Shown one piece after another: positions 3,957-61,350 of a stretch of 64,000 bases of DNA (within the stretch, counting starts at the first letter, position 1; each line of letters opens with the position of its first letter). Source of the DNA: a virus. The notes under the pieces are model-generated. The model saw only the letters and a program-made list of their open reading frames with translations. It made no database searches and had not been told where the DNA came from. The position numbers and the translations under genes were made by a program. The stretch lies in IMG/VR virus record IMGVR_UViG_3300021138_000017, positions 1-64,000 of that record; one strand, given 5' to 3'.

Positions 3957-3985
3957 TTGACTTTTTATTGTAAATAATATATAAT
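3957..3985 (+). promoter_or_regulatory. sigma70-like promoter of the tmRNA gene
   Basis: TTGACT at 3957-3962 and TATAAT at 3980-3985 are separated by exactly 17 bp. Transcription should begin near 3992, just before the acceptor half of the tmRNA. Confidence 0.85.
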
Positions 3986-3991
3986 GTTAGT

Positions 3992-4346
3992 ATTGTTGTA
4001 ATTCCTTTGTAGTAAAGGCATTGTGGACGTGGGTTCGATTCCCACCATCTCCACCGAAGTGTATTGTGCAACCAAATGGGAGTGCAAAGTTCGTGGGACA
4101 GTATATTTCGTTGGGGGTGACCTGGTTTCGACATGGTGAGATAGCGAAAAAGGCAACACGGGAAGGTGAAACCCGTAGGGTTGGGGAGACTCGGCCGTAG
4201 AAGCAAATCTCGTAAATGCAAAAGCATCTACTGGCGAAGTAACTGTTTCAGGTAAGAACATCAAGTTCCGCACTTTAGCAGCCAAAGGCCAATCTTTAGC
4301 AGTTTAATCACTGCTTTGCGGAGTTATCCGTCGAAACAGAAAATAA
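3992..4346 (+). ncRNA. ssrA: circularly permuted (two-piece) tmRNA
   Basis: The 3' half of the tRNA-like domain comes first: T stem-loop GTGGG-TTCGATT-CCCAC at 4029-4045, then acceptor strand CATCTCC (4046-4052) and ACC. After about 57 nt the 5' half follows: GGGGGTG at 4113-4119 (all 7 positions pair with the acceptor strand, two as G-U) and the tmRNA signature GGTTTCGACATGG. A tag frame with resume codon GCA at about 4218 ends at TAA 4305-4307 and encodes ...TLAAKGQSLAV. The terminal A of CCA is not encoded (ACCG). The RNA rescues stalled ribosomes and tags proteins for proteolysis. Permuted ssrA genes are known from alphaproteobacteria, some betaproteobacteria and some cyanobacteria. Exact RNA ends are estimates. 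Confidence 0.88.
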
Positions 4347-4349
4347 CAG

Positions 4350-4375
4350 ATAGGAGCTTCGGCTCCTATTCTTTT
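4350..4375 (+). terminator. Rho-independent terminator of the tmRNA
   Basis: An 8-bp stem ATAGGAGC / GCTCCTAT with a TTCG tetraloop is followed by TCTTTT, directly after the tmRNA sequence. Confidence 0.9.
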
Positions 4376-4390
4376 GACAGCAATCTCTGG

Positions 4391-4419
4391 TTGACTTTTA
4401 TGTAAATAACAAGTATAAT
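4391..4419 (+). promoter_or_regulatory. sigma70-like promoter
   Basis: TTGACT at 4391-4396 and TATAAT at 4414-4419 are separated by 17 bp. The promoter drives the 4447 gene and the metallophosphoesterase. Confidence 0.85.
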
Positions 4420-8677: not shown

Positions 8678-8974
8678 ATGAAATTAATTCAACAAGAATT
8701 ACCAGATGGAAAAATTATTCCAAGGTTAGAACAATCAAGATATGATCCATCTGATATTGTTGGCCGCACAAGTCAAGCGGCAGCTGATAAAGTTGGGCGT
8801 TATGAATTAATAATGATAGGAGCTACACGAGCTCGAGAATTAAAGGCAGGTCATGCCAAAAAAGTTAATTCTATACACGGTACTTTAGTTACTGCTATGT
8901 TGGAAATTGAAGCAGGGCTTATTGATCGCGATGAGTATATAATTAAAGCAATGGCCCCACAAAAACAAAGGTAA
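8678..8974 (+). CDS. RNA polymerase omega (RpoZ)-like subunit
   Basis: The 98-aa protein contains VGRYELIMIGATRARELKAG followed by GTLVTAMLEIEAGLID. These line up with the two conserved blocks of bacterial omega (NRFDLVLVAARRARQ and TVIALREIEEGLI). The length also fits. In bacteria omega supports assembly of beta-prime into RNA polymerase. A phage copy could replace or supplement the host subunit and change promoter choice, which fits a genome with two promoter classes. It is cotranscribed with the 8498 gene and followed by tRNA-Ser. Homology is by eye but both blocks are distinctive. Confidence 0.72.
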   Translation: MKLIQQELPDGKIIPRLEQSRYDPSDIVGRTSQAAADKVGRYELIMIGATRARELKAGHAKKVNSIHGTLVTAMLEIEAGLIDRDEYIIKAMAPQKQR

Positions 8975-9343: not shown

Positions 9344-9419
9344 TGGCTTATAGCTCAGTCGGTAGAGCGTTTGACTGTTAATCAAAATGTCCCTGGTTCG
9401 AGCCCAGGTAAGCCAGCCA
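9344..9419 (+). tRNA. tRNA-Asn (GUU)
   Basis: Acceptor TGGCTTA/TAAGCCA, D arm GCTC...GAGC, anticodon stem TTTGA/TCAAA with loop CTGTTAA (anticodon GTT), T arm CCTGG TTCGAGC CCAGG, and encoded GCCA. All parts of the cloverleaf are present. Confidence 0.95.
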
Positions 9420-46620: not shown

Positions 46621-49600
46621 TTATGTTAACCCTCGCAAAAATCTAGCAGGTGGGGTATTAGTTTCCTGTAAAGGAACACCGTCGCTAGCTGAATAAAACC
46701 CTTGATTATACCATGTGACCCCACGTTTTACTAAAATAGTAACTTCTGATCCATTTGCCGGAGCTGTTGTAAACACTACTGTTACAGGAGTCAAAGTAGT
46801 AATTGTATAATTGCCTATTTGCTTAATTCCGCCGACATAAACTTCAACTGATTCAAGCGGATCTACGTATGAATAATCATATGTGAACGGTTCTAAATTG
46901 ATAGGTCCTTCATCAAATAAAACAGTATCAAATCCCTGAATTATAGTTTCTATGTTAATATTTGTAGCTATGTAAGTTGTTGTAGTTCCGTCTCCTACAA
47001 AATTATTACTTACAACATAGTCTTGGAACTCTTTTGGTAGTAAATTTCCTCGTCCCATATCGTAAACAATAGAGCCATTACTGTGACTAGCGGCAGCTGT
47101 ACCAGCTGTGCCGCGCAATAGACTACTTATAGTATTGGCGTTTGTATCAATTTCTCTATACATTATACGTTCGCCGTTAATAGTTACTACTCCCCAGATA
47201 TTTGCCGAAAAGTTTGGTATAGTAAGTGCTGAAGCATTATTAACATATATGATATCAGCTGTAGCAGAAACTGATGCGGTTAACGATGTAGTTGTTTGCG
47301 GGGTCATACGATAGGTTGCTTGTACACCACGCATGTCTTGGAAAATTCTAAATTCCATTGCTTCTGGCACTATAGAATCTGTAACAGATGTTATTATAAC
47401 TACATCAGTTGACTGTAATGTATTGGGTAAAATTAACATTGTACCAGAGACAGTATAATCTACTATTGGCATTAATATTTGTCCATTTAATGACACACGC
47501 AAACGATCAACGTTAGTAATTAATCTTCCTAAATCTAAATTATTTGATGTAATTGTAGTGCCAATACTATAACTGTAGCTTCCTGGTTCTCCTGTAATGT
47601 TGCCTTGATCAAATTCGGTATCATCAAAACCTTCTGATATTGTTACTCCTTCGGTTATAGGCCCAACAAAAACTTGTGTTTCTAGTCTTTGTTCACGAGT
47701 GTCATGCCAAGTAGTGATAGTAATTGTCTCTCCTGCGCTAATTGTAACGTTTCTAAAGGTTATTTGATGATTTAAAGGATCAATAACGGCTTGAGACCCA
47801 GTTGTAACAGCAATATAAATTCTTGTACCTAATAGAGGAGCTGATGCAAAAGTCACTGTAGTTCCCAATGTTTGTGGATTTACAGTATATCCTGATACTT
47901 GCGGTATATCATTAAAATAAACCAGCACATCGCTGTCAACTATGGTACTTTGATCAAATCCTAATCTTTGAGCAACTTCAAATGTAGTAGTTACCCCGTC
48001 TCCTATATAACTTATACCACCAGCTACAACTAATTGATTACCAGCAAGTGTTACAACCGCATTTACTGGATTGGTATATTGTAAACTAATAGTAGGATCT
48101 AAGTTGTAAGTATATACTCCATTTGTTGAAGATATTGTTTGAACAATAGGCACACTCCAACTATAATGTACTGTAGTATTATTAATAGTAGTTGGACCAA
48201 TAGCAACTAAACTTATAAAATCCGTTGAAGTATAAGCGTTATTAAATGTAATAGCGGTAGTGCCGTATGTTGTTCCAGAAGTATAAGTATACTCAGTATT
48301 ATTTAAATATGCGCCATTAACAAATATAGCAAATTCTTGTATTAATGCGTATTGAACGGGCACAATAATAGGATTTACTATAGCTGACCCAGTATATGTT
48401 TGTTTATAAAGTTGGTTTCCACCACCTAATTCATAAACATTAACACCTATTTGATCTCCTTGTACTACTCTACTAGACGATGTATTAATGATAACAGTTT
48501 GTATTGTCCAATTAACTGTATAATCAACTCCTACTAATAAATTGTATCCTTGGGTATAATCAACAACTTCAATCAATACTGGATAAGGTTCTAATCCACC
48601 AAATCTTATAGTAGGGTTGCTTGATCTATATATTGAATTGTAAGTAGCTAAAGGAAACCCGTGTCCTACTCCTGCCCAATCAGCACCAGGTGTAGTATAA
48701 ACTCTAAAATCCATAGTATCAAATTCAATACCTGGAACTAATTCTTCAGGCGCATGACTTTCATAAGTGTCTACATAAGCTCCACCGTTGATATTAATAT
48801 CTGAGGGACGTGTTCCTAAATAAGGATCAAGATAAGAACTAGCAAAAATTGTATCTAATATTCCTAAATCATAAGTAGGCTGTCCATTGGCATCAATACT
48901 TAAATTGTCCCAAGGATTAAAATCAAAATTTCCTCTATCAAATCCTGTATCTTGATTAAAAGATAATCCGCTTACTTGTACACCTGGATAATCTATTCCA
49001 TCTATTAATAAAGGCAGAGACAAACCTGGTGTACTAGGAGTTGACACATAATAACCCATAGTTCTATTGACACCACTTAGTGTTTTAGCTTTTACTAATG
49101 TCCAATCGCTAGGAATAAATTGTTGGTAAAAATATAAAGTATATTGAAGTGAGGGACTAGTATTTAAAACCAAAGCTGACAATGTAATTGTATTTCCGCT
49201 TATATTTAACACCGTTGTATTGTTAGCTATTCCAGGACCATCGACTATTTGTCCAACAATAATTCCGCTAGCGTCAGTAACAAATATTCTATTTGATCCT
49301 GTTGTTAATGTAGCTGTAGTAACGAAAGTAGTATTGGTAATATTGATATTTGCTTGATATACAATATTTTTGTATCTAACTTGTGTTCCTTCGGTATATG
49401 TACCTCCGGGCATCCATTCTACTATACTTGTATTGTATTCATAACGATCATATTTTACTATAACTCGAAAGGATCTTACCAATGAGTTATTCATAATAGG
49501 ATAAGCAATCGCGCCTGTTCCATTTCCACCGCTGAATGTTATTGTGGCAGTATTAATATAACCTGATCCAACGTTTGTCATTACAACTTGTGTCACTTGC

Positions 49601-52600
49601 CCATTAGAATTAATCAAAGCATATCCTGTGGCCAATATCCCGCCAGACATTGGAGAACTAAATGTAACAGTAGGTTGCGTTGTATAGCCACTTCCTCCAT
49701 TTTCTATAATTACACCGTCAATACTCAATAAGAAGTTATTGTACCACTGACTGTAAGTGCTTGGCTCTAACCACAACTGTGCGTTTGGAGCGGCGTCACT
49801 CACAGTTGAATAATGAGTTGTTTGAGCTATAGTATATGGTAAACCAGACATATTGTAATTGATTACAGGACTTACAAACTGAGGTACTTGTAAAGTTGAA
49901 TTCCATATAGCTGGCAAATCAAAGTCTGTTAAATCTCCACCAAAAGTATCTTTTCCATCATAAATTAAATTAAATTGTTTTACTTGTACATGATAAGGCT
50001 TTACTTCTTGAAAATAATCAATAACAAATTCTTGATTATCAGGCAAATAAGTTTGATAAGGTAATAAATTCCTAATAGTATGGTCAACATCAACGTAACT
50101 GGTTTTTATTAACCACGATGGGTCAGTAAATTCACTGTATACATAGTTAAACATTAAAATTAAACTGCTATTACGTTCATATAATAAATCATTAATATAA
50201 ATTTGCTCGTTTAAGGCTTGAATTATATAACGTGTTTCTGTTTGTGGTGTTTCGTCAAAATATTGACTGTCAAAAACTTGAGAATCAAATCCAAAATTTC
50301 CAACTGTGTAATTCCACAAATCTTCGGCAAATTGTATAGTACCATCTTCTAATCCAACACGCTGCCAATCATTAACAGGATCAACACCAGTACGTAGCCA
50401 AATTTCATATTTTCCGGCACCATTATTAATAACTCTTACACTTGACCCAACAGGAGCAGTGGAATAACTTAATGAACCTAGTTGTCCATAATTTTGTACT
50501 GCGGCAACTGGTGCTTGAGTATAATTATATCCTGGCAAGTACCAATTAATGTAATACCAATATTCTGGTGTATTATAATGTTGTATTTGTACTAAACTTA
50601 ACTGCAAATCTGACTCTACTTCATATATGGTCCAACGTCCGCTTTGTGTACTGTCGTTGTCAACAAGATATCTGTAACCTACAGGAACTAGAGATAAATT
50701 TTGATAACCTAATACTTCTAAGTTAGGCACTTCGAAATTCCAAAATAAAGTATTTGCTGTACCAGTACCAGAACCAACACCGGTAGCCACAAAACTTAAT
50801 CCAATAGTGTTATTTGCAGCGCCTATTGTTGTAAAATTTGTGTTTCCTAAAGTTGATATTGTATATGTTTTTCCAATAACAAAACTTCCAGCAGTTATTG
50901 TAATAATTTGAGGTGGCAAAGGTTCAGAAGAATCAAGCAAGGTAAAACTACGTGTTTCTGAAATAGGATATTGAGCTAAAATTGTATTTGCTCTAGTTAA
51001 ATAATTTTTTAATGCTAAAAATCTATCGGCAAACATACTTTGACGTGGTCTAAATTCTACCCCGTATTTCATGCCAGGACTCAACAATGGGTCAGGAACA
51101 AGATTTCCAATTCTATCTACCCCGCATAAACTATCTTGAAATTTTCTATACAGTTGAGTATTTAAAAACGAATCAGAGATGCCATCTTTAATAATTTGAT
51201 ATTCTTGATGAATTATAGCATCATTAAGTTGTTGATCAAATCCAATGCTTAAAATTGTGTTGTTGCTTGATAATATATTTTTTGCGTTATATATGGCTAT
51301 GGTTGAAGAATTCAATCCTGCTATATAAGGTAATCCACTACTGCGAGGATCATAGATATAACTTGCTACACCGTTGGCACTGAGAGTTTTTCCAGCACCT
51401 TGTTGTATTGTTGTTATTCCTTTTACCCAATAATAGTATAATGTTGTAAAAATATTATTTTTTCCAAGTTGTGACGATATTGAATAAGATATTGTACTTA
51501 AAACAGTGCCTTGTCCAGTATAACTTACGGGAGGCGAAGTACTTTCTATCCATTGATATACATCTACACTACTGCCAGGAAAAGTTTGTCCCCATCTACG
51601 ACTAGCATATACTATGTCATCCTGGTTAGGATCAATAAATCTTACTGTATTAGTATCCCACCACATTTCACCTAAATGTTCTGGACCCCAATAATTACCA
51701 TTATTATGTACTGAGCCTGTATTGTATTGTGCTGGATCAACTGCCCCAATGTAATTAATATTTTGTCTAGCCAAACCTAAAATTTTACCCTGTAATGGGT
51801 CAAAGAAATCAAAGTAAGTTTGTGTTGCTCCGTTAATAGTGCTGTTAACTCCTATTTCTTGATTGCCATTGTAGGCAAAAACACTATTAATAGAGTATAC
51901 ATCTACAACTGGTTGTTGAGTACGTATAGCTTTCCACGCAGGAGAATTTGTAGGATTATCAAATACTACAATATATCCGTAATTTGCGGTATTAGTAATT
52001 GGACCGCCAGTTGCGCCAACAACCAATTTACCTGTAACATAACTAGATGAAGTTCCAAATGCGTCACCTGTTTGTACATTACTATTGTATATTTGTTGAC
52101 CAAAAGCAAATTGTCCTGGATTTGACGGAGAATTATTACTGCTAGGGAAATAATCATATGTATATGCTACTCCGCCATTAATTATTGGATTAAAGAATGT
52201 GGTACTGTGTTCATCAAAATAAGTTTTTCCGCTATCAAATGTAGTTGGTTCATATACGTTGCCATTAGGACTGCCTACTATTAAATTGACAGCACTTGAA
52301 TCAATACTTAAAGATGCTCCAAATTGTCCATAAACAACAGGAAGAGGGCTTAAAATTTGTTGTGTAAATATAAATGTTTCAAATTCCAATAAATCAAATA
52401 CCGAATTTACAACTCCAGGTAGCACTGTAAGTAAATTTCCTGCGGTTGCGGCTGCCGAATTTAGTACTCCTATGGTTAATCTTCCTGAAACAACAGTAAC
52501 GGTATTTCCGGCAGCAGGCGGTGTTACAAAATATATACTTTTTGTTGATGGATCATAAGAATAATCAGCACTTCCTTGTATTATTGCGTTGACGTAAACA

Positions 52601-55600
52601 ACAGTAGTATAGTTGTTAGCTGTTTCGTATAAATTACCTATATAAAATACTGAAGTAGAGCCATCACATGAAAATTGTAAATCAGGAGTAGCCGAAGCAA
52701 ATATATTAGGAACATTACTGGCATTTATTGCTGCCGCAAATCCTGTCACTGTATTATTTGGAGAGGCTGGTACAGTAACTATACTATTGTTTATACGTAA
52801 TGTTCCGCCAGGAATTAAAATTGGGTTAGCAAAAGTAGAAGTTGTTGTACCGTAAACTCTAGATTGATTTACTTGATGATCTACAGACCCAGCTTGTACT
52901 ACATAAGTGCTGTCAAAAGGAGCACCTACATAAACACTACAATTAAGCGGACAAGCAGCAGTAACTGATCCATACATAGCTACTTCATTAGCAGTAGATG
53001 ACGTAAGTTGTTGTATTTGCTGTATTTGATTAGTTTCAATTTCAATGATATCACCTACAGTAAATTCAATATTAGTAAAAGTAACAGTATTTCCATTTAC
53101 ACTATACTGACCTGAATAAGATTGGGCTGTTGTAAGTAAGAATATATTGTTAACACTAACAGCCAACGGATATGTTACATTTCCAGGAACTGTATAAGTC
53201 ATTTGACTTGTATTACTAACAATATAACGTATTACACTACGATCAAAAATGTAAACAACACCAGCTTCGGTTAAATCGTTGACAGAAGCATTTGGGGCTC
53301 CAACCATTATTTGTCTACCATCTGTAGTAGTTGACACAGAAATTCCAAAATTGTCACCGTTAAGTGATTGGTTTGACGAAATGTAAGTAACATACTGCCA
53401 ATAAGTATCAGTTATTACGATTATTTTCGCACCCAAGGCTGGTACAGATCCGCTGGCAAATGTCAGCACAGTTGTTGCGGAATTAAATGTATAATCTAAA
53501 TATGGTCGTTGTAATTGTCCGTTGACAGTTACAGAAAAATTATAGTAATTTGTGGCATTGTATAGCAGTGAGTTAAGAGCAAATGATGTATTACTGTAAT
53601 TTCCTGTTCCAGAAATTGTAAACCCAGTTAAAATACTGTTAACTGTGTTTGTTACTGTTAATGTAATATTATTAGCAGGAGTGGCACCGCCTACTAGATT
53701 TCCATTAATGACTATAGTGTCACCAATTTCATATCCTAACCCACCGTTAATTATAGTAATAGAATATAAACCACGAACTACATTAACTGTAAAGATAGCG
53801 CCTACGCCAAATCCAGAAGTACTGGACTGTTGAATATCATAATAATTGTAATCATCTAACTGAGCCTGTTGATTTCTTGTAATTTTAATAATTTGATTGG
53901 CACTAGGAGGATTAGTGAATATCACAGATGTTGCGCTAACTGTATAATCAATATTCAATATTGCTGTATAACTGTCATTAAAAGTAACAGTCAACTGTCC
54001 AGGGTGTGTTGAGCCATTTATTTGTAAACTATTAGAATAATTAAAAGTAGATGTAAATCCATCTGATGTATATGTAACCGATTGTGTTTCTACATCAATA
54101 CGTTCATAAGCATACACAATATTTTTTGCTGGCGCAGAAATATACATCCATCTTTCGTCAGCACTTATAGTACCTGCCGTACCAAAATTTATAGAACTAA
54201 AATCAAGATCTGGTGCTACTAAAAGCTGTGTAATAGAATACTGAGCAGTATTAGGATTACGATACACCACTGCAGCGTATCCTGCCCCAGAATTACTATT
54301 TTTTGCTCCCACTACTGCCCATATTGCTGAACCAAATGATACAAAATTTCCAAAAGTTTGTGTAGCTGTAGCTGTTAATTTTAATAAATTACTGTATTCA
54401 TAATCTGTTGTACTATTATGAAAATAACAGTACACACCCCCTTGATTGGTATTTAAATTTGGAGCACCAACTAGTAAACCTACATTATTATATGCCTGTG
54501 CTACGCTAGTCGCATATTGTGCCGATGATCGTAAGTCTTGTGAGATAGTTGAATTAGTTACAAATGGACTTTGTTTTTCTAAAGTTTCCCAATGTCCATT
54601 TCCATCGTTGTCTACCCAGGCTTTAGATCCAGGCACTAAACTGTTTACATAAGGCAACGTTGAAATATCACTAGCTTGACTTACTCTAGCATTTTGTAAA
54701 TGGAAAATTAATCCTGTGCCTGTAACAAAAGTTACATTTGTATTTGTAAATGTAAAGGAAATTGTAAATGTTGTCGGCGAGGGAACTCCTAAAATTCTAT
54801 ACACACCATCAACACCAGAATTGAAATATTTTATTATTATTAAATCAGATACTGCTAAACCATGTGGTTGATTAAATTGTGCTGTGCTTGTGCCATTAAG
54901 ATTGTCAGATAATCTTGTCATTTGACCAAAAATATCATTAACTCTGTAAACTCCCCAATCATAACTATTAACTTTAGCAATCCATATATAAGTTCCTATA
55001 CCAATAGTAGAAAGATTAGTATCAATAGAAGTTGGATTAGCGATGTCAAACACTGTTATATCAATATCATCTAAGCACACATAGCCAGCAGAAGGCAAAG
55101 CTGATGGCAAACTACTGTTTTCATAAGTTGTAGGTAATATATTTGTAGAAGTTATAGCATAACTTTCTTTCCACAAATTATTTAGATAAAGTGTTTGATT
55201 GGCTTGACTAGCTTCGCCAGGATTTATAACTTGTATTGTAGAAGGATTATAATTTAATAATGCTTGATTTAATTGTATTTCAAAAAAACTTCTATTAGCT
55301 TGGGCACCATATGTTCCTGATAAAATAGCCCAATTTTCATAAATTTTATACTGTCCAGATTCTTTTCCGAGATTAGCCGCGTTAAATATTTCGGCTGCTT
55401 GTAAAGTACCTTTGGTTCCAATAAATTGTTGATAAAGTTGCACTTGACTGACACCGTTAAGATTCATATTCGTCATATATTGACGTGGTCTAAATCCTAT
55501 AAGCCCAAAGGCAAATAAATTATTATCACTAGTTAAGTTTGCTTCGTAAACGTTGTAAGCATTGGCTAGCTGATTGGCTTTGTTGGCTAAATTTGGTAAA

Positions 55601-58600
55601 AGTCCGTTATCAATAGCTTGATAATCACTCTTTACCCATTCACTATAATTAAATGTTTTTTGTGGTTCGCTTATAACCAATGCTTGCCAATAAGTATTTT
55701 TATATAAAACAATAACACCTTTGGTATACTTTGTATATGAATTCCATTGTTCAATATTATTTAAATTAAGTATAAATCCTTGAGCATTGAGTTGCCCATC
55801 CCACTGTGTGGTTGTAGCAGCAGTTAATTTTAAACGTATTTGTCTGGCAGCGGTTATTGGATCATATATTAAGTCATTAAATTGGCTTGTATTATTCAAT
55901 ACTATCATATCTTCATAATTTGTATATTGAAGAGTCAAGTAATTTATAGTTTGATTATTGGTTGTTGTTAATGTAAAGGTATTATTGTCTCTATTAACAA
56001 TCATTGTTCTTACATCTAATACTTTAAAATTTTGATCCAATAACATATTTTCCGGAGTTACACTGGCAATAGTATCAACTATAGATATTGGTTGAGTAGA
56101 TGTTATAGATGTAGCACAAGGATTAAGATTAATAATTGTACCAACCGTCCAATTTTGAGTGGCAAAATTTAAAAATTCAGTGGCCATCTGGAACCAGTTC
56201 AGTGTATACCCATTTTCTATATTAGCAAACGTCAAGCCTTGACTTTCTAAGTATGTTCCGTAGCCCAATAAAAAGTCGCATACACCAGCGGTATTGGTAA
56301 ATGTATAACCGTAAGGTATTTGTTTTACATTCTGTGTATACTGCGAAGGAACTTGAACTGTTTGATCCCCGGCAGTAATTGTTTTGTATAAACCAACTGG
56401 ATTACTAATTTGTACATTAAAATAAGGTTGAATATTACTATATCCATACACAGTATATCCAATTCCTCCAGACCCTAATTGAGCAATTTCAACAATCACA
56501 GAACTATATGTTATACTGTTAAAGGGTTGATTTTTATAAAATAATACATTATAACTAGATGGTGTAATTTCTAAATTGTTATTAGTAGATTCAGGGCCAG
56601 CACGTTCTGTGAATATTTGAATATACATAGGATCACTAAAGGAGGCCATACGATAACATAAACGAACATCTAAGTTAGACAAAGCATTAGTTAAATCTGT
56701 AGTACTATTAACGCCTGTTTGTTGATTATAATCTACTATCCAATTAATATAAGAAGCTTTGCTTGTGCCATTGCCATAAATTTCTACACCAGAAGCATTT
56801 AATCTATAACGTTTGTTATACAAATACTGACCTAAAGTTGTGTCATAACGATATAAATCTCTGTCAGCAAATAAAGAGAAGAACTGAGCAGGCTTTGTAA
56901 GAGCTAACATACGCATTATAGCAAACGGATACGAAGAAGAATTCCACCAAGATGCTTGTGCTGGGCCACCATCTCCTGCTATCCAAGATTTTTGATAAGA
57001 TAACGGATCTGTCAACCCAACTATAGATTCATTTGGTGGTAAAAGTTCGCCTTCTGTACCTGATGGTATGATTTTTGTAAGTCCTGGTCTGGCGTATTCG
57101 GGTAAAATATAAGGTCCTGCTGGGTTGGCAACAAGTCCTGCTTCTAAATCATCCCATAAAACTGTATTGCCAGAAGTATAAGGTGCTGGGCCATATCTTA
57201 AAGTCCACCAGGCTGGTTCTTCCGAAAACCCTAACATTTCCCAAGGAGTAGTATTTGGTGTTTCTGTATCATAGAAATAAAGATACAATCCTCTCCAGTT
57301 GCCCTGTAGTAATTGTTGTTGATTTATACGATTAGCTGATTGACTATAATTCCAAGTAAAAGGATTGCTGGCAATATAATCTTGTTCAGTATAATTTACT
57401 CTATTTTGCCCTACCCAAGACAAAAACGATTCGCTCATTATCTGATTAATTTCAGCGTATGTATAAGGTGTGGTACGGAAAAATCCTGGCAATAGAGCTG
57501 TTGTTTGTTCGGGATAAAATGTTGGATCAACACTGTCAGTTGATAAAGGTATAGGATTATCGTCTACTTTAATATTGTCATAAATTCTTTTTTCAAATTC
57601 AATTAAAACTTCATCACGTATATCACCAAAAGCAATAGTTTTACTGCCATCATGACCTTGAATTACTAAAGTAGGTTCAGAATATGTATAATCAAGATAT
57701 AAACTAGGAGTATATTTAGGATATAAACCCATTTTACTAGGTGTGTTTGGACACCAACTTGCTACAGTTGTAGGGTATTCGTTAATAGTGACTACATCAC
57801 CAACATTTAAAGGTATTAAAATTGTTAATTTAGGGGCGTCTGTTGATACTGTATATTGACTACCACGCAATAACAATACTCCATTTACATAAACCAATAA
57901 TCCAAGATAGTTACCTGATGTGAAATTATAAGTTTGTATAGTATTAAAAGTTTGTCTTGTTATTGGGTTAACAGTTGTTGAATTAGAAGTGTAGTTTGAA
58001 CCAACCGGTAACATATCACTCCAATAAAAAGGACTATTACTGTTGTTATTTTTAGTGATATAAGTTATAGCAGTATCAAGTATACTGCTTACTGATTGTC
58101 CAACTCCGATATCTAATTGAGTTACTGCGTTTAATAACTTATTTTTGTATTTTACATATTCTCTACTATTAAATTCAATTGCAGCAAAAACATTATAGTT
58201 TAGTGAACGTAAAAAATAACCAGCCAATGTTAAGGGCGAAGACTGTTGTAATATTTGTTGTCCGTATGGTACAATGTTGCCTAAATCTCGTGAATTATTT
58301 GGTCCATTTATAACTCCAGTAAAATCTACTAAATTTTCACAAATGGTAGAATATTGTTGACGTATAGTTCCTAGTGTAAATTGTTTACTGTTACCGTTAA
58401 AAGGATTATTTTCTAAGTTGATAGGAATTTGATAAAATCCTTGATTACTTACCTGCTGACTATATGCTAATACTTCAATAACATCTCCTACAACATAACC
58501 AGTTCCATTTAAAGTAATTGTAGTAGTATTAACCGCAGTATCTGTTATGTAAGTGTATGTTGACGGTAATTGGTAAACATTATTAATAAAAATTTGTAAA

Positions 58601-61350
58601 GGTGGCACATTCAAACTTGTTTCCACAACAACATCTAGTTGAAGAGGCAAAGTATTATATGTAAATTGGAATTGTTGCCTTGGTAGACTTGGTATTGCGG
58701 CTGTTTGCCAACCAATTTCTAAAACAAAATCAGTTCTGTTAGCGTATTGTCTTACAAATCCACTGCTTACATCAACAGTTATACCAACACCCGATGGTGT
58801 ATATATAAAAGTGTCAGTATACAAATTGTTATCAAATAATATATCACCTATATTGTCAAGACTAAAAAATGATAAGGGAATACCTAATACAGCGTCAACT
58901 GGGTTATCAGGATTTTCTGCGTAACTTAATAATTTACAGCCTACAAAATTAGAGCTGGGATATTGACTAGTGTCACCAAAACTATAACCACTACTATTAA
59001 ACACGTCAAACAATGGAGGTTGATTAACTTGGGTTTTTTGTTGTGTTTCGTACCAGTTTGTGCTGTCATAATAAAAACTAACACCGGTTAATGTATTGCC
59101 ATTTAAACATACAGTTGTTTGATTTGCTAATACTGGGCTATAAGATACAGGAACTAAATTTATAACAGGTGTTGTTGATATTTCAGGAGCCGGAATAACA
59201 AAGTTTACTTGATAAATTTGATTTCTAACATTAGGATTACTGTCAACAGCAAATATTATTAAACTACCTTGTGCTAATTGATATCCATCGGTTCCATAAC
59301 CAGTTTGTCCATTTACATTAAGTAAAGCATCTGTTTGCGTTAAATCTATGATATTTACCGAAGGCACACCTTGCGTACCAAAATTATAAAGTTTCAACCC
59401 AGAACGGAATTCTAAAATAGGTCTATTAGCTCTGGCTACATCTATAAAAACCGGTTGTGATTTATTATATGCCGCCGATGCCGCAATAACATCTTTATGA
59501 AACCATCTATTGCTACGAGTCCATGGATTTAGATCCGGACTAGCCATACTGATTGTCATATAATCAGGCACTAATGGCTGATGAATGTTGGCATCATAGG
59601 CTGTGTAACCGTATGGGAACTTATCATAAGGAATAGATACTTGTCCTAAATAAGTTTCAGGAGTAATAAAATCACTTACAGGTATAAGTGTAATACTACT
59701 TCCTACCCCGTAGACGTAGTAACTTTTTCCCTGATAAGATGAAGGAAATACTGTTCCTTGAAATGTAACATTGAGGCCATTTGTAAATACTACCCCGTTT
59801 GGACTTGTGTAATTTTTATGACCTAAAATTTCTTCTTCTATATTAATGGAAGCAGTAGTATCTTCTTGAATCAAATTTATAACACCAAAAAATGTTGGGT
59901 CAACACTGTCTTGATAGTATACAAAAGGCAACGCAGAAGTCAATAAAGGTATTTGTTCAAAAAGCCCACTAGAATTTCTATACCATTGAGTATTGGCATA
60001 CTCTAAACCAAAATTAATTGTAAACTGTTCAGTTGATTCTGCTACAGCTTGAACAAAATTTAATTTTATTGTGTTTACTACATATTGAATTTGCCAAATT
60101 CCTGTTTGAACAGTAGTATCATTATTAGTGAATATTATAGTACGACCGTTGAGATTTGTTATACCATCAATACCGTTTGGATATGCTGTCAAGAAAACCG
60201 ATATAGGTACATTATTAATTTGATTGAAAGATAAAGTCGATGGTGCTACTAAGTTTACTGTACCAATGCTGGTCATTGAGTAGTAAAAATTTTGAGCATC
60301 AGCGGCAGGAACATCAAAAGTAACAGTTCCTAAATCAGTACCATTATTACTAACTCCTAAAACTGTGCGAGATGATATATTAGGCGAATAACTTAAAACT
60401 CCGTCGATACCTGGTTCCGTTTGTATCCAAAATTCGGGTCCTGTTCCAGTAGTAGCATCTACAATATTTAATTGACCTCGGAAATTAAATTCCACATCAT
60501 TACAATAATATAAAGTATCAGGAGCATCTTGTGGTACTGTAAATGTAACAGTACCTCTTGTAGCCCCGGAATTTGTAACTCCTTCTAACCATAAATTTGT
60601 AGTACCAAAACTTAGTTCTGTTTTTATATAAAATGCCAGGGATAAATTTTGAACTAGGTTCCAAGTATATGTATTACCGCGAACTAAGGTTAATGTAGGG
60701 TTCAATTCTTGCTCTATTGACCAGCCGCTTGTTCCACTGTTTGTCACACGATAGTTAACGGCTTCTGGAGTATTTTGAGCTACAACAAATTGATAAGCTC
60801 CTGTGCGAGCTAATGATAATGTAGGATTAACTCCATTATATCCACTGAATGTATATCCTGAACTGGTTCTAGAAACTGTAAATGTTTGTGTAGTTGGTAT
60901 AGTTGTTGCGGCAACTGTTACTGTTTGTGGTCCTTGAGGAACCCAATAATACTGAGAATAATTATTGATTTTATCAAAATCTACAAAAGGATCCCAACTA
61001 TAATATTCACTTTCAAATAGTCTGTCTGCTTGATTAGTTATACCACCCTGTGTGTTAATAGCATCAAGTATGCCAGGGTATGTTATAGCATCAGTAATTT
61101 TTGCTGTTACTGGGTCTACAGATATAACACCTGGTTCAAGTTGATAATTTCTACGACTTGCTGTAGGTTCTATAACATAATAATCGTTTGGATTTACACC
61201 TGGACCAACTTTTTGGCCTATATAACCTTGTGTTTGTTTATATTGCGGTTCTTGAGTTAGTTGGTCTATAGTCGCATTTAAAAACTGTTTATTAACAGGC
61301 GTTTGAAATATTTCAGGTAATAGATTAACGGTACGAACTGAATTAACCAT
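46621..61350 (-). CDS. giant virion structural protein, 4909 aa
   Basis: One uninterrupted frame. The N-terminus (VNSVRTVNLLPEIFQTPVNK, then TQGYIGQKVGPGVN) resembles large baseplate-associated proteins of T4-like aquatic phages. Residues about 160-390 hold repeated beta domains (NPTLSLARTGAYQF, NPTLTLVRGNTYTW). Between about 2290 and 3135 seven VGAP-like motifs recur (for example LVGAPNLNTNQGGVYCY, MVGAPNASVNDLTEAG, IVGSPNGNVY), suggesting an FG-GAP beta-propeller. Later parts have GSGYTTQPTVTFSSP repeats. It starts in the stop of the upstream baseplate gene (TAATG) with GGAG before it. Probably a baseplate or side-fibre scaffold. Confidence 0.8.
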   Translation of the reverse strand: MVNSVRTVNLLPEIFQTPVNKQFLNATIDQLTQEPQYKQTQGYIGQKVGPGVNPNDYYVIEPTASRRNYQLEPGVISVDPVTAKITDAITYPGILDAINTQGGITNQADRLFESEYYSWDPFVDFDKINNYSQYYWVPQGPQTVTVAATTIPTTQTFTVSRTSSGYTFSGYNGVNPTLSLARTGAYQFVVAQNTPEAVNYRVTNSGTSGWSIEQELNPTLTLVRGNTYTWNLVQNLSLAFYIKTELSFGTTNLWLEGVTNSGATRGTVTFTVPQDAPDTLYYCNDVEFNFRGQLNIVDATTGTGPEFWIQTEPGIDGVLSYSPNISSRTVLGVSNNGTDLGTVTFDVPAADAQNFYYSMTSIGTVNLVAPSTLSFNQINNVPISVFLTAYPNGIDGITNLNGRTIIFTNNDTTVQTGIWQIQYVVNTIKLNFVQAVAESTEQFTINFGLEYANTQWYRNSSGLFEQIPLLTSALPFVYYQDSVDPTFFGVINLIQEDTTASINIEEEILGHKNYTSPNGVVFTNGLNVTFQGTVFPSSYQGKSYYVYGVGSSITLIPVSDFITPETYLGQVSIPYDKFPYGYTAYDANIHQPLVPDYMTISMASPDLNPWTRSNRWFHKDVIAASAAYNKSQPVFIDVARANRPILEFRSGLKLYNFGTQGVPSVNIIDLTQTDALLNVNGQTGYGTDGYQLAQGSLIIFAVDSNPNVRNQIYQVNFVIPAPEISTTPVINLVPVSYSPVLANQTTVCLNGNTLTGVSFYYDSTNWYETQQKTQVNQPPLFDVFNSSGYSFGDTSQYPSSNFVGCKLLSYAENPDNPVDAVLGIPLSFFSLDNIGDILFDNNLYTDTFIYTPSGVGITVDVSSGFVRQYANRTDFVLEIGWQTAAIPSLPRQQFQFTYNTLPLQLDVVVETSLNVPPLQIFINNVYQLPSTYTYITDTAVNTTTITLNGTGYVVGDVIEVLAYSQQVSNQGFYQIPINLENNPFNGNSKQFTLGTIRQQYSTICENLVDFTGVINGPNNSRDLGNIVPYGQQILQQSSPLTLAGYFLRSLNYNVFAAIEFNSREYVKYKNKLLNAVTQLDIGVGQSVSSILDTAITYITKNNNSNSPFYWSDMLPVGSNYTSNSTTVNPITRQTFNTIQTYNFTSGNYLGLLVYVNGVLLLRGSQYTVSTDAPKLTILIPLNVGDVVTINEYPTTVASWCPNTPSKMGLYPKYTPSLYLDYTYSEPTLVIQGHDGSKTIAFGDIRDEVLIEFEKRIYDNIKVDDNPIPLSTDSVDPTFYPEQTTALLPGFFRTTPYTYAEINQIMSESFLSWVGQNRVNYTEQDYIASNPFTWNYSQSANRINQQQLLQGNWRGLYLYFYDTETPNTTPWEMLGFSEEPAWWTLRYGPAPYTSGNTVLWDDLEAGLVANPAGPYILPEYARPGLTKIIPSGTEGELLPPNESIVGLTDPLSYQKSWIAGDGGPAQASWWNSSSYPFAIMRMLALTKPAQFFSLFADRDLYRYDTTLGQYLYNKRYRLNASGVEIYGNGTSKASYINWIVDYNQQTGVNSTTDLTNALSNLDVRLCYRMASFSDPMYIQIFTERAGPESTNNNLEITPSSYNVLFYKNQPFNSITYSSVIVEIAQLGSGGIGYTVYGYSNIQPYFNVQISNPVGLYKTITAGDQTVQVPSQYTQNVKQIPYGYTFTNTAGVCDFLLGYGTYLESQGLTFANIENGYTLNWFQMATEFLNFATQNWTVGTIINLNPCATSITSTQPISIVDTIASVTPENMLLDQNFKVLDVRTMIVNRDNNTFTLTTTNNQTINYLTLQYTNYEDMIVLNNTSQFNDLIYDPITAARQIRLKLTAATTTQWDGQLNAQGFILNLNNIEQWNSYTKYTKGVIVLYKNTYWQALVISEPQKTFNYSEWVKSDYQAIDNGLLPNLANKANQLANAYNVYEANLTSDNNLFAFGLIGFRPRQYMTNMNLNGVSQVQLYQQFIGTKGTLQAAEIFNAANLGKESGQYKIYENWAILSGTYGAQANRSFFEIQLNQALLNYNPSTIQVINPGEASQANQTLYLNNLWKESYAITSTNILPTTYENSSLPSALPSAGYVCLDDIDITVFDIANPTSIDTNLSTIGIGTYIWIAKVNSYDWGVYRVNDIFGQMTRLSDNLNGTSTAQFNQPHGLAVSDLIIIKYFNSGVDGVYRILGVPSPTTFTISFTFTNTNVTFVTGTGLIFHLQNARVSQASDISTLPYVNSLVPGSKAWVDNDGNGHWETLEKQSPFVTNSTISQDLRSSAQYATSVAQAYNNVGLLVGAPNLNTNQGGVYCYFHNSTTDYEYSNLLKLTATATQTFGNFVSFGSAIWAVVGAKNSNSGAGYAAVVYRNPNTAQYSITQLLVAPDLDFSSINFGTAGTISADERWMYISAPAKNIVYAYERIDVETQSVTYTSDGFTSTFNYSNSLQINGSTHPGQLTVTFNDSYTAILNIDYTVSATSVIFTNPPSANQIIKITRNQQAQLDDYNYYDIQQSSTSGFGVGAIFTVNVVRGLYSITIINGGLGYEIGDTIVINGNLVGGATPANNITLTVTNTVNSILTGFTISGTGNYSNTSFALNSLLYNATNYYNFSVTVNGQLQRPYLDYTFNSATTVLTFASGSVPALGAKIIVITDTYWQYVTYISSNQSLNGDNFGISVSTTTDGRQIMVGAPNASVNDLTEAGVVYIFDRSVIRYIVSNTSQMTYTVPGNVTYPLAVSVNNIFLLTTAQSYSGQYSVNGNTVTFTNIEFTVGDIIEIETNQIQQIQQLTSSTANEVAMYGSVTAACPLNCSVYVGAPFDSTYVVQAGSVDHQVNQSRVYGTTTSTFANPILIPGGTLRINNSIVTVPASPNNTVTGFAAAINASNVPNIFASATPDLQFSCDGSTSVFYIGNLYETANNYTTVVYVNAIIQGSADYSYDPSTKSIYFVTPPAAGNTVTVVSGRLTIGVLNSAAATAGNLLTVLPGVVNSVFDLLEFETFIFTQQILSPLPVVYGQFGASLSIDSSAVNLIVGSPNGNVYEPTTFDSGKTYFDEHSTTFFNPIINGGVAYTYDYFPSSNNSPSNPGQFAFGQQIYNSNVQTGDAFGTSSSYVTGKLVVGATGGPITNTANYGYIVVFDNPTNSPAWKAIRTQQPVVDVYSINSVFAYNGNQEIGVNSTINGATQTYFDFFDPLQGKILGLARQNINYIGAVDPAQYNTGSVHNNGNYWGPEHLGEMWWDTNTVRFIDPNQDDIVYASRRWGQTFPGSSVDVYQWIESTSPPVSYTGQGTVLSTISYSISSQLGKNNIFTTLYYYWVKGITTIQQGAGKTLSANGVASYIYDPRSSGLPYIAGLNSSTIAIYNAKNILSSNNTILSIGFDQQLNDAIIHQEYQIIKDGISDSFLNTQLYRKFQDSLCGVDRIGNLVPDPLLSPGMKYGVEFRPRQSMFADRFLALKNYLTRANTILAQYPISETRSFTLLDSSEPLPPQIITITAGSFVIGKTYTISTLGNTNFTTIGAANNTIGLSFVATGVGSGTGTANTLFWNFEVPNLEVLGYQNLSLVPVGYRYLVDNDSTQSGRWTIYEVESDLQLSLVQIQHYNTPEYWYYINWYLPGYNYTQAPVAAVQNYGQLGSLSYSTAPVGSSVRVINNGAGKYEIWLRTGVDPVNDWQRVGLEDGTIQFAEDLWNYTVGNFGFDSQVFDSQYFDETPQTETRYIIQALNEQIYINDLLYERNSSLILMFNYVYSEFTDPSWLIKTSYVDVDHTIRNLLPYQTYLPDNQEFVIDYFQEVKPYHVQVKQFNLIYDGKDTFGGDLTDFDLPAIWNSTLQVPQFVSPVINYNMSGLPYTIAQTTHYSTVSDAAPNAQLWLEPSTYSQWYNNFLLSIDGVIIENGGSGYTTQPTVTFSSPMSGGILATGYALINSNGQVTQVVMTNVGSGYINTATITFSGGNGTGAIAYPIMNNSLVRSFRVIVKYDRYEYNTSIVEWMPGGTYTEGTQVRYKNIVYQANINITNTTFVTTATLTTGSNRIFVTDASGIIVGQIVDGPGIANNTTVLNISGNTITLSALVLNTSPSLQYTLYFYQQFIPSDWTLVKAKTLSGVNRTMGYYVSTPSTPGLSLPLLIDGIDYPGVQVSGLSFNQDTGFDRGNFDFNPWDNLSIDANGQPTYDLGILDTIFASSYLDPYLGTRPSDININGGAYVDTYESHAPEELVPGIEFDTMDFRVYTTPGADWAGVGHGFPLATYNSIYRSSNPTIRFGGLEPYPVLIEVVDYTQGYNLLVGVDYTVNWTIQTVIINTSSSRVVQGDQIGVNVYELGGGNQLYKQTYTGSAIVNPIIVPVQYALIQEFAIFVNGAYLNNTEYTYTSGTTYGTTAITFNNAYTSTDFISLVAIGPTTINNTTVHYSWSVPIVQTISSTNGVYTYNLDPTISLQYTNPVNAVVTLAGNQLVVAGGISYIGDGVTTTFEVAQRLGFDQSTIVDSDVLVYFNDIPQVSGYTVNPQTLGTTVTFASAPLLGTRIYIAVTTGSQAVIDPLNHQITFRNVTISAGETITITTWHDTREQRLETQVFVGPITEGVTISEGFDDTEFDQGNITGEPGSYSYSIGTTITSNNLDLGRLITNVDRLRVSLNGQILMPIVDYTVSGTMLILPNTLQSTDVVIITSVTDSIVPEAMEFRIFQDMRGVQATYRMTPQTTTSLTASVSATADIIYVNNASALTIPNFSANIWGVVTINGERIMYREIDTNANTISSLLRGTAGTAAASHSNGSIVYDMGRGNLLPKEFQDYVVSNNFVGDGTTTTYIATNINIETIIQGFDTVLFDEGPINLEPFTYDYSYVDPLESVEVYVGGIKQIGNYTITTLTPVTVVFTTAPANGSEVTILVKRGVTWYNQGFYSASDGVPLQETNTPPARFLRGLT

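Follow-up and report, generated by a model that had tools for sequence, protein, structure and literature searches.

Does the tmRNA gene carried by this phage encode a working two-piece molecule, and what would its unusually long peptide tag do to the proteins that receive it? The window analysed here is a stretch of 64,000 nucleotides, positions 1-64000 of a virus record that is 76,594 bases long. Both Rfam and ARAGORN recognise a complete gene at 3992-4369 (+), which ARAGORN calls a permuted tmRNA (tmRNA*). This agrees with an earlier note, made from the letters alone, that had proposed an intact phage-encoded permuted (two-piece) tmRNA at 3992-4346; the mature gene ends at about 4347, with the terminator after it. 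The covariance-model check suggested there was carried out with cmscan and returned RF01850 beta_tmRNA with 110 bits (gathering 84, E 1.4e-32) and RF04321 tmRNA_permuted with 109.4 bits (gathering 47, E 2e-20). No non-permuted model outranked these in the search, and a match by chance is ruled out. RF01850 is the top match within its clan, which assigns the gene to the beta type, and RF04321 belongs to no clan. The elements of the gene are the following (window coordinates).

3957-3985, +: sigma-70-like promoter TTGACT-17-TATAAT, 11/12 consensus positions (called from the consensus match alone)
3992-4055, +: acceptor piece, comprising the P2 3' strand (TGTTGT), a hairpin, the T arm, the acceptor 3' strand and ACC (cmscan with RF01850 and RF04321, coordinates)
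4029-4045, +: T arm
4046-4055, +: acceptor 3' strand CATCTCC plus ACC, the final A not being encoded
4056-4112, +: intervening segment, 57 nt, whose ends form a 12-bp helix lengthening the acceptor stem (fold)
4113-4160, +: start of the coding piece, with the acceptor 5' strand GGGGGTG, the D-arm region GGTTTCGAC and the P2 5' strand GGCAAC (cmscan)
4113-4119, +: acceptor 5' strand GGGGGTG, followed by GGTTTCGACATGG up to 4136
4158-4196, +: PK1 region, with the stem ACGGG/CCCGT and an additional 7-bp hairpin with a GAGA loop (sequence, fold)
4218-4307, +: tag frame including the stop codon, AKASTGEVTVSGKNIKFRTLAAKGQSLAV plus stop, 29 aa (ARAGORN, relatives)
4298-4315, +: helix enclosing the stop codon of the tag, AGCAGT/ACTGCT (compensated in relatives)
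4319-4347, +: probable 3' pseudoknot, CGGA/TCCG with GTTAT/ATAAC (read from sequence alone)
4350-4369, +: terminator-like hairpin ATAGGAGC-TTCG-GCTCCTAT, then TCTTTT (sequence; scanner on the minus strand only)

The acceptor (3') half lies ahead of the 5' half in the sequence as well as in the ARAGORN and cmscan results. The seven acceptor pairs (G-C, G-C, G.U, G-C, G.U, U-A and G-C), described in the earlier note as spanning about 57 nt, all form across a segment of exactly that length. Concerning the flanking elements, the claimed promoter is present on the plus strand, and the claimed terminator is borne out in part, since the hairpin and TCTTTT are there but the scanner reported a terminator on the minus strand only. 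Another TTGACT-17-TATAAT promoter is located immediately past the tmRNA (4391-4419, +). The 29-codon tag reading frame had not been described before; its resume codon lies 10 nt downstream of a conserved CAAA, in short-tag relatives as well.

The window gene is intact and under strong structural constraint. G3.U70, the alanine identity pair, is present in the window and invariant in 214/214 related loci, as are G1-C72 and G2-C71, while pairs 4-7 vary and covary when the two strands are located independently. The acceptor stem is paired to 0.922, compared with 0.728 for shuffled partners (sd 0.031, maximum 0.838). Family-wide, the end helix of the intervening segment has a mean of 11.0 bp with its own partner versus 6.85 bp with swapped partners (sd 0.15), and the stop-codon helix shows compensating changes in relatives (TCGC/GCGA, GCTG/CAGC, TGGTTG/CAACCA). 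The intervening segment of the window tmRNA is expected to be cut out of the mature RNA, and the conserved end helix is consistent with such a removal, which would leave a two-piece mature molecule. Four permuted tmRNAs (L028, L031, L045 and L059) have the T loop GGCRGAG, not TTCGANT, and several have an altered D-arm region (GAATTAGTTTCGAC). In L033, L038 and L087, the intervening segment contains a short ORF with a Shine-Dalgarno-like start; the frame in L038, e.g., MTDTPYIIVTILLVVLVCVHVFL, ends beside the tmRNA 5' piece.

The tag of the window, AKASTGEVTVSGKNIKFRTLAAKGQSLAV, has 29 residues ending in SLAV, compared with the usual length of about 10. It is thus distinct from the canonical AND...ALAA tag of about 10 residues, exemplified by ANDEKFALAA in the Cupriavidus plasmid copy. 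A tag-pattern scan found 28 viral contigs, with nearly all matches inside recognisable permuted tmRNAs. Among the matches listed, 255 beta-type phage loci gathered with PK1-motif scans had a readable tag (near-duplicates counted in; a few short tags, L233 and L242, may be frameshifted), and their lengths were sharply bimodal: 10-14 aa for 138 tags, 21-35 aa for 117 and 15-20 aa for 0/255. The long tags fall into classes. Class I, to which the window belongs, reads GEVTVSGK[NG][VI]KF... and ends in LAV or FAV in 21/21 distinct sequences of 29 codons. Class II starts with TFEYFQVDFDV..., usually followed by ANDExFALAA, and class III with TFDFSAMSFTGNTV..., with related forms such as STLGTVKVSMGRGFRFARGTEAVAA; the C-terminal ends of both are mostly the canonical ...LAA. 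The motifs TFEYF, SFTGNTV and GEVTVSGK were seen repeatedly across many backbones.

The class I DNA pattern, a tight one that some variants would escape, had 0 matches in 84,980 prokaryote species genomes; three long tags had no convincing match in INPHARED, and Pfam and PHROG searches with the tags gave nothing significant. The idea that the tag was copied from a phage gene was rejected, as no second copy exists in the 76.6-kb record or in the fetched loci. In the PDB, the class I tag resembles short beta-hairpin repeats found in repetitive proteins that bind cell walls or act as toxins; no single stretch exceeded the threshold, and the resemblance was taken as convergence.

Selection on the tag differs among the classes. 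In classes II and III, pN/pS is 0.16-0.57 in the coding frame and 0.88-3.59 in the other frames, and short tags have values similar to the in-frame ones. Class I alone gives 0.69 in frame versus 0.76 in one other frame, which indicates weak amino-acid constraint; the argument for selection as protein is therefore weak for the window's own class, and the likeness of class I tags could reflect the recent spread of a cassette. In a tree of the tRNA-like half, which is coarse owing to its few columns, the tag classes are scattered, and well-supported branches require the short-tag label to change 6 times or more. Identical tRNA-like halves with different tags (L149/L152; L087 and L113/L123) provide evidence of swapping that is independent of this coarse tree. 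Because the tree scatters the classes and identical halves differ in their tags, the tag half, judged from these comparisons, moves between phages as an exchangeable module. Seven contigs (L004, L014, L021, L034, L035, L038 and L046) stop within or just ahead of the tag frame, as expected if co-existing phages share the tag module.

Among the products encoded by the record are a baseplate wedge of T4 type, a tail-lysozyme hub protein, a protein resembling a tape measure, a late sigma factor and SbcD. Comparison of the baseplate protein with its counterparts on other records gives identities of 81% for G006 and G017, 79% for G013, 68% for both G001 (344 kb) and G045 (317 kb), and 65% for G007; the closest relative by this protein (81% identical) has the same tag class as the window. 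Because the baseplate protein matches relatives with large records, the window's record probably represents only part of a large, freshwater-type myovirus genome of 200-340 kb. The earlier note also took the tmRNA as a pointer to the host lineage. Gammaproteobacterial hosts (Pseudomonas, Stenotrophomonas, Xanthomonas and Acinetobacter) possess one-piece tmRNA, and isolated phages of these four genera nevertheless carry permuted copies; therefore, a permuted phage tmRNA does not reveal the host lineage, and host identification by this route was rejected. The alternative that the earlier note had named as a refutation, namely a host gene next to a prophage border or contig join, would fit the fact that tmRNA genes are common integration sites. 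However, the phage structural genes on the record, the shared tag class of the relative with the 81%-identical baseplate, the finding of this gene at internal positions of related contigs as long as 344 kb and the absence of the class I tag from the bacterial genomes scanned leave this explanation with almost no probability.

The permuted tmRNA on a phage is already in the literature: according to PMC9004378, the two-piece form occurs in 53/133 distinct phage tmRNA structures, and 50 of those 53 come from marine or aquatic samples. A 2025 database paper reports 79 phage tmRNAs and founded RF04321 (PMC11915505). In the searched passages of PMC9004378, PMC11915505 and PMC7162821, no mention of long tags on phage tmRNAs was found, nor did an analysis of tags turn up in PMC9004378 or PMC7162821, and within the libraries searched the long-tag family is new, whereas permuted phage tmRNA itself is known. 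The window gene shares with the RF04321 and RF01850 permuted tmRNAs the gene order, the G3.U70 acceptor stem, the T arm, P2, PK1, the resume codon, the probable 3' pseudoknot and the terminator region, and differs in its 29-aa tag ending in LAV instead of an ANDxxFALAA of about 10 aa, its longer intervening segment and its phage location. The phages Melnitz and Mosig likewise are large marine or aquatic myophages with permuted ssrA (PMC9004378). However, Mosig has the short tag GEDNFALAA, and in Melnitz the gene is of alphaproteobacterial type and is accompanied by a glutamine riboswitch (same source); the Rfam search of the window returned no riboswitch. The isolated phages XacN1, Samunavirus UF_RH6, Menderavirus Moby and BUCT628 also contain ARAGORN-detectable permuted tmRNAs, but with tags of 12-14 aa, and the XacN1 tag ANANTFDYALAA has a class II-like start without the insert. 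The ssrA tag of Mesoplasma florum resembles that of the window in having about 27 residues rather than about 10, but it is Lon-specific and unrelated in sequence. Mollicute tmRNA is one-piece and cellular.

Proteins that might read the tag were sought on the phage records. ClpA, ClpP, Lon and SmpB are absent from the window's own record, itself a fragment. Lon was found in none of 17 phage records and SspB in none of 39. SmpB was absent from all 36 records searched, unlike in huge phages, for which tmRNA with SmpB has been published and phage-encoded ribosome rescue already proposed (PMC7162821). ClpP occurs in 21/43 records; in 10/21 phages its gene and the tmRNA are no more than 4 kb apart, against 1.4 expected, a count that includes related and thus non-independent phages. 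The loci with ClpP near the tmRNA (L196-L203, on records G003, G008, G028, G023, G031, G002, G009 and G038) represent at least 3 gene neighbourhoods. On class I contigs, ClpP is present in 1/8, versus 19/27 (Fisher p 0.011).

Among contigs of 100 kb or more, 12/28 encode a ClpA-sized unfoldase. The ones that were examined proved to be ClpA (TIGR02639, E about 1e-240 or lower, yet below the curated cut-off; best PDB match 1ksf), and all except one truncated copy contain the ClpP-docking IGF loop. Full-length ClpA with this loop is found in large phages related to the window at L325:668-2947, L326, L327, L329, L330, L331 and L332 (records G006, G012, G018, G005, G001, G004 and G032). ClpX-size proteins occur in G001, G045, G044, G047 and G055, with a zinc-binding start in those read. 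On the contigs of at least 100 kb, ClpA accompanies long tags in 10/13 cases versus 2/15 for short tags (Fisher p 0.0016 overall; 0.0018 for contigs of 100-200 kb). As proof, this association was rejected: it is confounded by phage lineage and vanishes within the window-type lineage as defined by the baseplate protein (6/10 long-tag versus 2/3 short-tag). Since the association follows phage lineage, phage ClpA is treated as a candidate reader and not as evidence.

Considering the gene form, the folding constraint and the conservation and swapping of the tag together, we favour, with reasonable confidence, a working two-piece tmRNA in large-myovirus infection that adds a selected, exchangeable 29-residue tag, most likely a degron. 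We infer that the window tmRNA is active in infection, and phage control of ribosome rescue through it, as the earlier note supposed, is plausible. In such a scheme, the acceptor strands and the intervening segment of one transcript would fold into a single long hairpin, from which host tRNA-processing enzymes may excise the segment and complete CCA, while the acceptor stem and P2 would hold the two pieces together. To judge from the anatomy, host AlaRS would charge the RNA with alanine via G3.U70, and SmpB, assumed to be that of the host, would be its partner at stalled ribosomes. Translation would resume at 4218, and a 29-residue phage-type tag (AKASTGEVTVSGKNIK...) would replace the bacterial one of about 10 residues. 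The tag insert and the C-terminus (LAV/FAV, not LAA) might then shift the choice of Clp-type unfoldase, host or phage ClpA/ClpX, and the speed of degradation. In E. coli, AAV and ASV variants decay slower than LAA (PMC9097571). That the long tag alters protease preference or decay is the most speculative part of this reading, and we propose it only tentatively, as somewhat doubtful. A self-contained phage circuit, in which the long tag would be read by phage ClpA/ClpX with phage or host ClpP, apart from host quality control, and tag modules would be exchanged between phages, seems rather unlikely.

Several other explanations bear on the same observations. If this were an ordinary phage tmRNA, for which only ribosome release, the essential part of trans-translation, matters, tag length would drift while the stop codon and its surrounding helix stayed. 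The weak amino-acid constraint in class I fits this picture; however, drift should populate the 15-20 aa range, in which none of the 255 loci among the matches listed falls, and the in-frame constraint in classes II and III and the return of TFEYF, SFTGNTV and GEVTVSGK on many backbones also argue against it, so we consider it rather unlikely. The extra length could also serve RNA structure instead of the peptide, given that class I conservation at synonymous sites almost equals that at other sites. Classes II and III, however, show an excess at third codon positions and a low pN/pS in the coding frame, and the lengths remain in frame, which makes this very unlikely.

Other possibilities concern the fate of the tagged product. 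The LAV/FAV end may escape ClpXP, so that truncated products are kept or host tmRNA is outcompeted to spare phage proteins; the LAV/FAV end in 21/21 distinct class I sequences, the slower E. coli decay of the AAV/ASV variants and the paucity of ClpP on class I contigs (1/8 versus 19/27, p 0.011) point in this direction. Nevertheless, classes II and III mostly have canonical ...LAA ends, ClpA is encoded by class I kin, and the loss of ClpP may stem from lineage or fragments; such a protective tag appears unlikely. Host Lon could also be the destination of long-tagged products, as in mollicutes, where the 27-residue tag of Mesoplasma florum is read by Lon and its sequence AANKNEENTNEVPTFMLNAGQANYAFA resembles classes II and III in length and aromatic content (PMC9097571). 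But class I is aromatic-poor, no phage Lon occurs in the 17 records, and the likeness is one of resemblance only, which makes this quite improbable. Returning to the favoured degron tag, phage tmRNAs are usually scored as mere presence or absence, and conserved long tags that are swapped between tRNA-like halves, often on genomes with ClpA, ClpX or ClpP, raise the testable question of whether phages rewrite the degradation signal during infection. If they do, long tags would be a source of new natural degrons.

Elsewhere in the window, a tRNA-Asn (9344-9419, +) has exactly the same 61-base core as its counterpart in cyanophage S-RIM8, and a 98-aa protein (8678-8974, +) matches RNA polymerase Rpb6/omega (Pfam PF01192, E 5.7e-8). 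An ORF of 4909 aa (46621-61350, minus strand) is very large for a phage protein. Beyond the window but within the record, a unit of about 69 bases is imperfectly repeated in tandem at L002 13178-13356.
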